Notes under the pieces: generated by a model
The model's input: the letters and a program-made list of their open reading frames with translations, nothing else
Told to the model about the DNA's origin: nothing
The model's database searches: none
Translations under genes and position numbers: made by a program
NCBI RefSeq assembly: GCF_020386975.1
Contig: NZ_JABFNK010000005.1
Coordinates: 682,001-746,000, forward strand
Source: Thermococcus bergensis
GTDB lineage: Archaea > Methanobacteriota_B > Thermococci > Thermococcales > Thermococcaceae
Length of the DNA stretch: 64,000 bases
Reading direction: 5' to 3'
Shown here: positions 39,784 through 46,599 of the stretch, piece after piece
Numbering within the stretch: the stretch's first letter is position 1
How the letters are laid out: the number at the start of each line of letters is the position of its first letter

Positions 39784-40715
39784 ACCCTAGTTCCCACCAC
39801 CTGTGAAGTTGTATAATCTGTCCAGATTCACGGCCAGAATCGCCCCTAAAATCCTGACAGCTAACCCCCTCAAACTAACACTCCTGCTCGGCCTCAGAAG
39901 AAACTCAGAAAACTTCGAAAACAAAGTCTCAATCCTCCTGCGAAAGTCAGACAAGTACTTGTAAAACTTCTTCTCCTCCAGATTACTAATCTGATTCCCC
40001 CGCTTTACTGGCGTGTAAACAACGCCAAACCTCAGAAATTCCTCCTCGAGCCCCCTGCTAACATACCCCTTATCCAAAAACAGAAAACAGCCGGAAAACT
40101 CCTCAACAATCACCCAGAACTTTTCCCGGACAACACTCACATCATGCTTATTCGCCGGATCAACAGACAGTAAAGCCAGCAAATTTCCATCAGAGTAACA
40201 GGTCAGCTTGTACCCATAGTAAAACTTTTTTTAGAGGGAACAAACCCAACTGCGGGCTTTTCAGAGATGACTTCTGAAGAACCCTCCTTATCCTTCCTGT
40301 TTTTTCTGGCCAACTCCTTGGTCTGAATGGGCTTTGAGTCCAGTATTCTAACGTATTCTCTGGCGTGTTTTTTGAATAATTCTTCCTGCGCTAGGAGCAG
40401 GAGTTTTTCGTGCCTGTTCAAGCGTTCTGTTAGTTTGTTGTACCTGATTTTGGGGAACAGCTTCATTTCTTCGATTAGGACTCTGTAAGCGTGCTTGTAA
40501 ACTCCGTTAAAGTGCAAGTGTGCTAGTATTGCGAAGGTTATTAGGTCGTAGAGGCTGATTATTTCCCTGTGAGTGTTTTTCGGGTAGTGTTTGCTGATTA
40601 TCGGGTAGATTTCGGATTTTATGATCAGGATTTTCCTCTGAAAGCTCAATACAACCACCAATCAATCAAAAGACTTAAGTGCTTATAACTCTAACGATCT
40701 AATGGGAACTAGGGT
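39784..40715 (-). mobile_element. IS982-family insertion sequence, copy 2
   Basis: Same 932-bp length and 13-bp terminal inverted repeats (ACCCTAGTTCCCA) as the copy at 26269-27200. Flanking AGATAGAC at 39776-39783 and 40716-40723 is an 8-bp target duplication. The two copies differ at many scattered bases, mostly silent or conservative, so they did not come from one very recent jump. It sits in the 3' end of a small membrane protein gene. Confidence 0.93.
39787..40649 (-). CDS. IS982-family transposase, two frames joined at an A7 tract
   Basis: Frame one runs to 40203 and ends SKKSFTMGTS as in copy 1; frame two (to 39787) carries LLALLSVDPANKHD, FLDKGYVSRGLEEEF and RRRIETLF. The T7 run at 40226-40232 (A7 on the coding strand) is the shift site. 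The start corresponding to copy 1's ATG is a TTG here (40649), with the same GGTGG site. Amino-acid differences from copy 1 include NFQQEI/SFQRKI, HFGG/HFNG and RELQEEFLK/RGLEEEFLR, with both frames still intact. Confidence 0.82.
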
Positions 40716-43323: not shown

Positions 43324-43400
43324 GGGCCCGTGGTCTAGCTGGTTATGACGCCACCCTTACGAGGTGGAGGTCCGGGGTTCGAATCCCCGCGGGCCCACCA
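43324..43400 (+). tRNA. tRNA-Val (anticodon UAC)
   Basis: A full cloverleaf with encoded CCA: acceptor GGGCCCG/CGGGCCC, anticodon stem CCACC/GGTGG around CTTACGA, giving anticodon TAC (reads GUA/GUG-type valine codons), and T-loop GGGGTTCGAATCCCC. There is no intron. The CCA ends at 43400 and a non-coding repeat zone begins immediately afterwards. tRNA genes are common insertion points for archaeal mobile elements, which fits the accessory DNA downstream. Confidence 0.95.
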
Positions 43401-43420
43401 TAACAGCCCTTACCTGCGTA

Positions 43421-43675
43421 AGCGCTGGCGGAATGTTGAGTGCTTTTCTAAGGATTTACAACTAAATGAACAGGGTTTCTTGTTTACATGCTCTTTTATG
43501 AGGGTTTCACTCGGGAAAGCGTCCTGTAGACGCTAAAATTGGATTGAAACCTGATTGAAAGTGCGTATTTAGGAAGTGAACCCCTCTAAAAGTGCTTTTG
43601 AGCAGTGCACAACTGGTTTTTGCCTGTTAGTAAGAAGGGGCATCTTTTGGTCAAACTTTTTCCAAAAGTTTGCTT
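43421..43675. repeat. 255-bp direct repeat, copy 1
   Basis: From AGCGCTGGCGG to CAAAAGTTTGCTT this block is matched by copy 2 at 43976-44229 with roughly 90% identity by eye. Inside are a perfect hairpin GCGTC-CTGTA-GACGC (43520-43534), a stretch CTAAAATTGGATTGAAAC, and at the end CAAACTTTT-TCC-AAAAGTTTG. A hairpin (CTTAC-CTGC-GTAAG) stands just before it. Stops occur in all frames, so it is not protein-coding. Confidence 0.8.
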
Positions 43676-43816
43676 ACCTGCTTGCCTGCGCGAAGTTTGA
43701 TCAAGGTTCGTGGTTCCTTTTACCTTGCCCTTCTACTAGGGATTTTCATTCTAAAAAGCTCTCTTGGGATGGAATTCCACAAATACTAGCTGTCTTAGGG
43801 AAGTTTCTCTTACTTT

Positions 43817-43838
43817 GACGCCCTTCGGGCGTCTTTTT
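43817..43838 (+). terminator. Hairpin followed by T-run
   Basis: GACGCCC-TTC-GGGCGTC is a perfect 7-bp stem with a tight loop, followed by TTTTT. It looks like a bacterial-type intrinsic terminator; in archaea the T-run alone may suffice. It stands between the two copies of the 255-bp repeat and implies that something is transcribed across copy 1. Confidence 0.5.
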
Positions 43839-43975
43839 ACAATGTAAACTCTTATAAGCCAGGTTCTCTAAAGTTGGAATTCACAATTAAACGAAACGTT
43901 TTCAAAAATCCCATCCAAACCACCCCTACGAAAAGGAACCACCAACTTTGATGAAACTTTGCCTCGCAAAGTTTC

Positions 43976-44229
43976 AGCGCTGGCGGAATGTTAAGTGCTT
44001 TTCTAAGGATTTACACTAAATGAGCTGGGTTTCTTATTTACATGCTCTTTTATGAGGGTTTCATTCAGGAAAGTATCCTGTGGACGCTAAAATTGGATTG
44101 AAACCTAATTGAAAGTGTGTATTTGGGAAGTAAACCCCTTTAAAAGTGCTTTTGGGTAGTGCACAACTGGTTTTTGCCTGTTAGTAAGAAGGGGACTCTT
44201 TTGGTCAAACTTTTTCCAAAAGTTTGCTT
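43976..44229. repeat. 255-bp direct repeat, copy 2
   Basis: Starts AGCGCTGGCGG and ends CAAAAGTTTGCTT like copy 1, 555 bp further on. The hairpin in the middle is weakened by two changes (GTATCCTGTGGACGC), while the flanks CTAAAATTGGATTGAAAC and GTGCACAACTGGTTTTTGCC are kept. A different hairpin (AAACTTTG-CCTCG-CAAAGTTT) precedes it. The 245 nt after it, to the ATPase gene, hold no gene I can see. Confidence 0.8.
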
Positions 44230-44474
44230 GCATGCTTTATGGAAAGCTTTTTCCGGAATAACCTTGACGCTCGGAAACATGTTTGTACGAGGTTTGGGTT
44301 TGTTTGTCTGTTTCTGCAATTGTGTTAGTTTGTAAGGGATTTTTAGTCTAAAATTTGGTATTTCCAGAGGTAGCGTTTGGAGAAGGGTTATAGTAAAAAA
44401 CACGTGTAGAAAAGAGTATCAAATGGAGAAAGATTAATAAGATGAAATGGCTAACAAACAAGTAGGGATAAAGG

Positions 44475-45836
44475 ATGGAAATACTAAAAGAAATAGAAAT
44501 TAAAAACTATAGAGGGCTTAAGCATGTCAAATTTACCCCAAAGTCAATTAATATAATTGTTGGTCCAAATAACACAGGTAAATCTTCTATTTTAGAGGCT
44601 ATTGGCCTAGCAATGACTGCTGGAAGCAAATTTAACGATTCAATTGAATTTAATCTTCTTAAGTATTTGTTCGAATTAAAAAAATATGATCCTAGGTATA
44701 TCACGCATATAAATGAAAATATGGCTAGAATACAGGTTGTCTTAGAGGACAAGAAAAAAAGATATTCTATTATAATAGAATATTATCCAAAAGAGCTTCC
44801 AGATGACGAGCGATATGGATTAGTTATGGAGTACTTGGAAAAATATGCAAAGCGTATAGTGGATAGAGAGCTTGGTAGAGAATATCGGTTATTGAGAGAA
44901 GTATCAGAATATTTCATTGAATCGATTAAAAAATATATAGATGAGGCAAAAGTAGAAGAATTGAAACGTGATTTTCTAAGAAAATATCTACCACGAGAGA
45001 TCAGGGGGTACACAGAGGTAGGTACTCCCGATGAGTATCAAAAACTAATTGAACAACTCACAGATGAATTATCAGCTTATATGCTGTCTTCCCCAAAAAT
45101 TGTGATCACAATATATAATCCAAATAACGAAATAGCGGGGTTGTATTTGTATATACCAGAGCGAATAAGATCAAGGGTATCTATCAGAACCTTGAGATAT
45201 TATTCCCCTCCAATTTACATTTACATTGGAGGAATATACACTATTGTTCGTCCTAAACCTAAATTAGATATACCTCCCTTTAATGTTGTACTTAATTTCC
45301 AGAAATCTGCTGTGGCATCCAATGTTGGTAATTTATACGACCTAGTCGTATCAAAAGGAAAAATTAAGAATGCACTTGAAATACTTAAAGAAAGAATCCC
45401 ATATATCGAAGATATTCGAAAAATTGAACAAGGAATGTACGTGCTTGTTTCACATCATAATGCCCCAATACCTCTTTCATCTATGGGTGATGGATTCGTT
45501 ACATTGCTTAAGTTAAGTTTTTTAATAGCTCTAGCGGAGAGTGGAATAATTATTTTGGAGGAACCTGAAGTCTCTTTGCACCCCTATTTTATGGAGATAG
45601 TAGCTGAAGAGATTGTAGCTAACTCAAAAAATGTCCAGTTTTTCATCTCAACTCACAGTTTAGACTTGCTAAACTCCCTCTTGGAGAAGGCTGAAGAGGA
45701 AGATAAGCTCCATGATATTAATGTTATACGCCTCCATTATAGGGAGGATACAAAAAAGGTATATGCAGAAGTTTTTGATGGAATAGATGCGAAAAATGAA
45801 ATCGACGAAATTGGGACTGATTTAAGGTATACTTGA
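44475..45836 (+). CDS. OLD/PARIS-type AAA ATPase (putative defence sensor)
   Basis: A 453-aa protein of the SMC/ABC-like AAA_15/AAA_21 class. EIKNYRGLKHVKF is the usual N-terminal strand pattern, GPNNTGKSSILEAIG near residue 30 is Walker A, LSSMGDGFVTLLKL near 335 is the ABC-like signature, IIILEEPEVSLHPYFME near 358 is Walker B with D-loop, and STHSLDLLNSL near 392 is the H-loop. A helical insertion fills the middle. There is no nuclease domain in cis; the next gene, 16 nt on, appears to supply it. Base composition is more A+T-rich than the flanking core genes. AriA of PARIS has the same size and layout (family knowledge). Confidence 0.8.
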   Translation: MEILKEIEIKNYRGLKHVKFTPKSINIIVGPNNTGKSSILEAIGLAMTAGSKFNDSIEFNLLKYLFELKKYDPRYITHINENMARIQVVLEDKKKRYSIIIEYYPKELPDDERYGLVMEYLEKYAKRIVDRELGREYRLLREVSEYFIESIKKYIDEAKVEELKRDFLRKYLPREIRGYTEVGTPDEYQKLIEQLTDELSAYMLSSPKIVITIYNPNNEIAGLYLYIPERIRSRVSIRTLRYYSPPIYIYIGGIYTIVRPKPKLDIPPFNVVLNFQKSAVASNVGNLYDLVVSKGKIKNALEILKERIPYIEDIRKIEQGMYVLVSHHNAPIPLSSMGDGFVTLLKLSFLIALAESGIIILEEPEVSLHPYFMEIVAEEIVANSKNVQFFISTHSLDLLNSLLEKAEEEDKLHDINVIRLHYREDTKKVYAEVFDGIDAKNEIDEIGTDLRYT

Positions 45837-45852
45837 GACTGGGGGTAAGCGC

Positions 45853-46599
45853 ATGAATATTTTTGTCCTAAAGGGCTTCAATGATTTGGTTTTTGTTAAA
45901 GCCCTATTGGAGTTCCATTTTGATAAAGAGCGTGTCCCTACTGCCCATGATACACATTTTCAAAGAGGAATAGCCAGCTTAATGAAAATGTTACGCAATC
46001 CTGGATTATATAGGTATATCAAAACATCTTTTGGCGTTATTGTATACGGAGATAATGGTAAACAAAATGTAATCTCCAAGGTATTACCAAGACTAGCTCG
46101 GGATTTATTAGGTAAAATCCCTGAGGAAATAAGACTTCTAACAATCCTTGATGAAGACGGTGTTCCTTTGTCTCAAACTCTCAGAAAAATATGCAAAGAA
46201 ATAACCAATAGACGTATACCTGATGCCAGAATACAAAACTCCACATCAAATGAAATCCTAATTGTCTCGACTGCCAACGACAATTACAAAATTCGAATTC
46301 GTGTCTACTTAATTCCTCAAAGTCTGGAAAAGCAAATAGTATCCCAAAGTGTTCACTTTACTGAGGTTCACCAAAAATATGGGACATTACTAGAGGATGA
46401 TCCTCATGATGCACTAGAAAATATTGCTGGTATAATTGGTATTACTAAAGATGAACTAATCGGAAAAAGTGTGAAAGAAGAGTGGTTTAGGGAGGAATTA
46501 TGGTATACTAATCTCTTGAAAGAGATTGAAGATTTCTTTTGTTTTGAAAGAAGAGAAAAAATGAATAATCTTTCCAACAACCTTCTTCCAATTGAATGA
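45853..46599 (+). CDS. TOPRIM-like (DUF3226/DUF4435-like) partner of the AAA ATPase
   Basis: A 248-aa protein in operon with the ATPase. The N-terminal FVLKGFNDLVFVKALLEFHF has the strand-GxxD-helix form of a TOPRIM domain, and LLTILDEDGVPLSQTL near residue 99 matches the DxD strand. The usual glutamate of VEGKxD is replaced by Lys (LKGFND), so catalysis may be altered or the domain may be a distant relative. The C-terminal half is helical with a polar tail. GGGGGTAAGCG precedes the ATG. An effector nuclease role is inferred from the pairing. Confidence 0.6.
   Translation: MNIFVLKGFNDLVFVKALLEFHFDKERVPTAHDTHFQRGIASLMKMLRNPGLYRYIKTSFGVIVYGDNGKQNVISKVLPRLARDLLGKIPEEIRLLTILDEDGVPLSQTLRKICKEITNRRIPDARIQNSTSNEILIVSTANDNYKIRIRVYLIPQSLEKQIVSQSVHFTEVHQKYGTLLEDDPHDALENIAGIIGITKDELIGKSVKEEWFREELWYTNLLKEIEDFFCFERREKMNNLSNNLLPIE

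Follow-up and report, generated by a model that had tools for sequence, protein, structure and literature searches.

What occupies the kilobase that follows a tRNA-Val gene in the chromosome of Thermococcus bergensis? The window analysed here is a stretch of 64,000 nucleotides (contig NZ_JABFNK010000005.1, positions 682,001 to 746,000), and at its positions 43,401 to 44,474 the initial annotation had noticed a duplicated structured module, which it found to fit a decayed integrated element or a pair of RNA genes. To the explanation developed below we assign about an even chance: the zone is a non-coding, hairpin-bounded array of palindromic repeats, belonging to a family that is dispersed in Thermococcaceae and would behave as non-autonomous mobile DNA.

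The tRNA-Val gene (anticodon TAC, CCA encoded; 43324..43400, plus strand) was found by ARAGORN and by Rfam RF00005 (68.8 bits). The array starts at 43404, 3 nt past the CCA, with a left-end hairpin on the plus strand, START (43404..43428; CAGC-C-CTTAC..GTAAG-C-GCTG with a central C-C mismatch), which was recognised from its pattern in the genomes of the family and from covariation. A start 21 nt after the tRNA had been reported because similarity to the second copy begins there; the element itself does not. From 43404 to ~44237 the zone consists of three imperfect palindromes in the order A-B-A, with small hairpins between them. Copy 1 of unit A (43421..43683, plus strand, tip at 43518-43534) is delimited by the repeats, by its relatives and by its fold z-score; copy 2 (43976..44237, plus strand), the tip of which (44072-44088) is degraded, is delimited by the repeats and the fold z-score. 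The duplication is real: 43421-43460 and 43976-44015 form a direct repeat of 98% identity, which 43461-43683 and 44015-44237 continue at 91%, and the start-to-start spacing of 554-555 agrees with the ~555 bp first given. As originally described, the copies share a closing hairpin, CAAACTTTTTCCAAAAGTTTG (43652..43672 and 44206..44226, from the sequence and the repeats), and are preceded by different hairpins, CAGCCCTTAC..GTAAGCGCTG (43404-43427) ahead of copy 1 and the junction hairpin GAAACTTTGC..GCAAAGTTTC (43953..43975, from the sequence) ahead of copy 2. The inner stem AGCGTC/GACGCT is likewise perfect in copy 1 and broken in copy 2, by one G-T and one A-C. Single-base indels between copies of the module argue against a decayed protein gene.

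Between the copies lies unit B (~43684..43975), delimited by its fold z-score and by outer arms (43690-43721 and 43931-43962) that are 88% complementary. Its tip (43817-43833) is followed by T5, and what had been taken for a terminator-like hairpin, GACGCCCTTCGGGCGTC plus T5 (43817-43838), is the tip of this third unit. The fold z-scores are -2.70 for A1 (43404-43683), -6.16 for B and -1.30 for A2 (43957-44240), the last not significant taken alone. The first 97 bases of B recur in the same genome (C5:1138330), and the type of hairpin that precedes A copy 2 is, when inverted, the left end of units of a further type, C. In all three types the unit comprises a junction hairpin and an imperfect palindrome, together ~240-290 nt, and arrays range from one to about four units, judged by length. 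As to the surroundings, the array is followed by a two-gene operon (44475-46599). Its products are an OLD/AriA-like ATPase of 453 aa, which matches Pfam AAA_15 and has PDC-M38A as its best PADLOC profile (2.6e-35), and a protein of 248 aa to which no Pfam family matched; this operon and most of A copy 2 have no aligned counterpart in genome G006. On the minus strand at 39787-40661, two adjacent ORFs, one of them with a DDE_Tnp_1 transposase match (39787-40182), have the appearance of a disrupted IS transposase gene.

The window's own genome, G000, carries four copies of unit A, three of which directly follow tRNAs (Val-TAC, Val-CAC and Arg-CCG) out of the 47 present. Searching 61 genomes with copy 1 (E<=0.001) gave matches in 13, all from one family, the Thermococcaceae, so the module does occur elsewhere; the match covers most of the unit in six (G000, G002, G005, G006, G019 and G023) and is partial, often the closing hairpin alone, in the remaining seven. 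The START pattern occurs in 70 of 94 Thermococcaceae genomes (one match overall for the reversed-pattern control), and the type-B and type-C start patterns, which can match array interiors too, occur in 45/94 and 57/94 (control 0 for each). START is missing from 24 genomes, some of them incomplete, among which are all nine of genus g2, where the A, B and C start patterns gave no match. The array had no match in the plasmid and phage collections, records near the query possibly lying outside that comparison. A scan of collections with the pattern AGCGCTGGCGGAAN{3,10}GTGC, which is too loose, drew at least 118 genome stretches and 73 viral ones; by profile search only L086, L093, L112 and L133 are real, all of them Thermococcus or Thermococcales, and the best viral match (L209, E 0.02) is a chance one. 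We found no description of these repeats in the openly accessible literature (titles and the starts of abstracts), including the accessible portions of PMC6972569, PMC3124441, PMC4247193 and PMC5316973; an earlier one may exist.

The genomic address of the family is the 3' end of genes. Of 62 distinct START sites in seven repeat-rich genomes, 47 follow the 3' end of a same-strand tRNA at a distance of 1-6 nt (exactly 3 nt in 34 cases), and the tRNAs concerned cover 15 amino-acid specificities. (The seven were picked for their many sites; G088, with 14 sites, and three of the 11 sites in G023 were left out, and the two rows of L272 were dropped as a duplicate of L271.) By simple arithmetic, with ~46 tRNAs in 2 Mb, a random site would fall at such a place about 7 times in 100,000. 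When G036 was considered by itself, a unit was found no more than 4 nt after the CCA at 18 of 43 tRNA genes (A 8, B 2, C 8), the 43 being those detected with RF00005, which misses intron-containing tRNAs. Other kinds of gene end are also used: START is 0-4 nt past a stop codon in L257, L261 and L275, and 2-4 nt after Rfam sRNAs in L285 and L306 (sR36) and L307 (Pab160). Three sites are farther downstream of tRNAs (two in L258, one in L260), one is between pyrB- and pyrI-like genes (L304), one is inside an array beginning where a Cbf5-like gene has its stop codon (L302), and L286, L301 and L303 fit none of these addresses. The remaining site, in L270, follows a conserved RNA-like stretch. This GC-rich stretch precedes a unit in three genomes (L270, L032 and L036), drew no Rfam match at gathering score in the scans of L270 and L032, and could represent a small RNA not described before.

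Some of these addresses are shared between genera. In L302 a type-C start completes the stop codon of the Cbf5-like gene, and identical gene-end letters precede the type-C start in L040, from another genus; we presume the Cbf5-like and PyrB/PyrI-like names from the translated gene ends. Sites are syntenic between genera at this gene end (L040, L302), at pyrB-pyrI (L247, L304) and in a 2Fe-2S-type operon (L241, L246), and part of the distribution is therefore old and vertical.

Because the position is so exact and some sites are common to genera, a role for the host is the main rival and a serious one, though we think it unlikely. The units, terminators or insulators behind strongly expressed RNA genes, would then be 3'-end elements that selection maintains and gene conversion copies among loci, and the mosaic arrays described below would fit this as well. 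The distribution of T-runs speaks partly in its favour: TTTT occurs within 70 nt at 37 of 47 START sites, and in G036 it follows 16 of 18 element-bearing tRNAs vs 10 of 25 tRNAs without a unit. Going by the letters, such early T-runs are compatible with ending the tRNA transcript. However, AAAA, the antisense control, is found at 25 of the 47 sites, and TTTTT at only 16. The family is also patchy for a host element, with START absent from 24 of the 94 genomes and most tRNAs of the same genome lacking a unit (three of 47 carry one in the window's own genome), and palindromic arrays of 250-1100 nt would be larger than a terminator needs.

Comparison of orthologous tRNAs in the window's genus shows that units are present in some relatives and absent from others. 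Among the nine genomes displayed, Val-GAC has a unit in G002 only. Arg-CCG is followed by A in G000, G005 and G006, by B in G002 and by a remnant in G007, and by no unit in G004, G008, G009 and G010. Val-TAC has units in six genomes and none in three, and in G001 a unit follows a partial tRNA. Loci L324, L340, L345, L347 and L349, the tRNA tails of which are unlike the search string, fell outside this comparison. At Val-TAC, G000 has A1 between the CCA and B, and G002 has B directly after the CCA, which fits, in this one case, the addition of a unit at the tRNA-proximal end; the two genomes differ in the first arm of B's hairpin, so that the junction is close, not perfectly clean. The comparisons yielded no empty site whose flanks are clean and unchanged, and no target-site duplication was found. 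The dinucleotide before the type-C hairpin varies (AA 10, TA 7, CT 6, others 14, in 37 distinct contexts with internal junctions included). This hairpin occurs at left ends and, inverted, inside arrays, and no right end matches the left end of type A.

Recombination has also left its traces. Arrays within one genome are mosaics, and in G036 units of different arrays are 98% identical over 59-81 nt. At tRNA-Arg the identity between G000 and G006 is 99-100% over the stretch -818 to ~+280, then 95% and then 79-93%, with a second identical tract near -2118 to -1518. These tracts (L022 and L023), at 99-100% within surroundings of ~76-93%, are, as judged from the identities, the product of recent recombination between species. 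A recombination tract thus stops within the array; recombination anchored at tRNAs is one real route between species. By eye, L031 (G001), L239 and L253 show partial 3' halves of tRNA-Val, tRNA-Arg and tRNA-His, then a left-end hairpin, as expected if another element integrated into an array-bearing tRNA; from the partial tRNA-Val and unit in G001 it follows that tRNA-targeting elements share the sites of arrays.

A sequence that directly follows a tRNA, folds strongly and has cTTCGg tips might also be a structured non-coding RNA, freed from a tRNA co-transcript by tRNA 3'-end processing, in which case A and B would be related RNA genes. The START stem does covary, at pair 9-16 (G-C, T-A and A-T), most columns being fixed by the search pattern, and its C-C mismatch is present in 82 of 82 distinct relaxed matches, most of these loci having been fetched by a pattern that fixes both bases. 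Over 37 units the mean fold z-score is -3.42 for the sense strand, but the antisense strand folds about equally (-3.08, p 0.14). When the sense fold is made without G-U pairs, single mismatches are evenly divided (G-T 17, A-C 17); the antisense fold made in the same way has G-T 14 and A-C 31, which amounts to a mild preference for G-T once converted to the sense strand. The alignment folds of the sense strand lean to RNA, with G-U 135 vs A-C 9 in the genus and 98 vs 25 in other copies, and we set this aside because such folds favour G-U by construction. The loops of the type-B hairpin occur in both orientations: of 94 matches, 43 have CTGC and 28 CTTC, 15 have the reverse complements (GCAG 9, GAAG 6), and the other eight are each one mismatch from a major loop. 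Both orientations point to DNA hairpins or cruciforms that flip. Rfam 15 gave no match at gathering score, only a chance match of 22.7 bits vs a cut-off of 92, and the accessible portions of two Thermococcus transcriptome papers (PMC4247193, PMC5316973) do not mention the repeats. Given loops in both orientations and no significant strand bias, the units are better explained as DNA palindromes than as RNA genes; the proposed pair of RNA genes finds little support, and we regard a structured RNA as distinctly improbable.

What, then, could move such palindromes? The genes common to arrays (116 loci, 40 largest ORF clusters, judged by eye from the starts of the sequences) included nothing recognisable as a transposase, an integrase or another mover; those found repeatedly next to arrays resemble ordinary orthologues. 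A Y1 (IS200/IS605) transposase was considered as autonomous partner and rejected: it is absent from nine of the 13 genomes that have the motif AGCGCTGGCGGAA, and 15 Y1 loci compared with unit A have no similarity to it. As a separate observation, G000 has five Y1 transposase matches (L381, L387, L390, L391 and L392), three of which (L381, L390 and L391) share ~1.9 kb at 100%, as in a recently active insertion sequence.

Taken together, the presence and absence of units between relatives and their address suggest a non-autonomous mobile family, MITE- or REP-like, that targets gene 3' ends. Since the mover has not been found, the mechanism is one that we infer. An enzyme acting in trans on the hairpin ends would insert units at the 3' limits of genes, for the most part RNA genes; further units would be joined at the tRNA-proximal end, as A may have been before B in the one comparison with G002. 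Recombination would shuffle the units and carry tRNA-plus-array tracts between species, the palindromes would flip as DNA hairpins, and transcription of the tRNA may stop at T-runs within the unit, which would render the insertion harmless. Against this explanation stand the search for a mover and the Y1 transposases, which do not track the family, as well as the lack of a target-site duplication, of a clean empty site and of any insertion caught in progress. The syntenic sites point to a part of the distribution that is old and vertical, three START sites of the seven-genome sample have no explained address, and homologous recombination alone could account for much of the spread between similar tRNAs.

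In a variant of the mobile reading, a doubtful one to which we give little weight, the DNA would be mobile and protein-less: palindromic cassettes with hairpin ends that flip like hairpin-replicated termini, joined to the 3' ends of stable-RNA genes. The joining would perhaps proceed via transcription-opened DNA, or via DNA synthesis primed from an RNA 3' end, and would have given rise to cassette arrays behind some two-fifths (~40%) of all tRNA genes in the most array-rich of the genomes examined.

A plasmid or virus that integrated at the tRNA attachment site and decayed, as was first suggested, is very improbable: pT26-2-family plasmids do integrate at tRNA 3' ends in Thermococcales, according to the accessible portions of PMC6972569, and partial tRNAs with a unit were seen by eye in L239, L253 and G001, but neither the array nor its neighbours contain an integrase (ORFs, and Pfam for nine neighbouring proteins), identical short units stand at tRNAs of 15 amino acids, at sRNAs and at stop codons, the collections of plasmids and phages, with the reservation made above about near records, have no match, and no orphan partial tRNA-Val copy was seen in the own genome (assembly 96% complete), where each of the 13 listed matches to the end of tRNA-Val falls on a tRNA gene. 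Of that suggestion, the tie to the tRNA 3' end and the mobile character are supported, and a decayed integrated element at the tRNA-Val(TAC) locus is not.

If the array is indeed non-autonomous mobile DNA, common and apparently unnamed mobile palindromes follow some tRNA genes in most Thermococcaceae genomes. They would influence where tRNA transcripts end, how the chromosomes of model hyperthermophiles recombine and where integration hot spots lie in them, and they raise the question of which enzyme recognises such a hairpin with its mismatch and sets DNA precisely behind an RNA gene.

Four known systems invite comparison. With the SSV-type and pT26-2 elements of tRNA genes the array family has its genomic address in common; unlike them, the array has no integrase and no plasmid genes, and no partial tRNA copy was found in its own genome. 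The family resembles MITEs in being short, non-coding, palindromic, multi-copy and dispersed, and present or absent between relatives. It differs from them in that no autonomous relative or target duplication was found, in its targeting of the exact 3' boundary of genes, mainly of tRNAs, and in combining different palindromes into modular arrays. REP/BIME and IS200/IS605-derived palindromic elements have small mismatched hairpins at the ends of their units, and going by this general description the array family may be similar; it differs in the large palindromes between its hairpins and in that Y1 transposases do not follow it. Because a partner transposase was sought and not found, we do not class the family as a proven MITE or REP. 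The double-hairpin elements and GC clusters of fungal mitochondria are mobile palindromes that encode no protein, and we know of no targeting of tRNA 3' ends by them. They belong to a different domain of life, and what they have in common with the arrays behind these archaeal tRNA genes is that both are palindromes without a protein.
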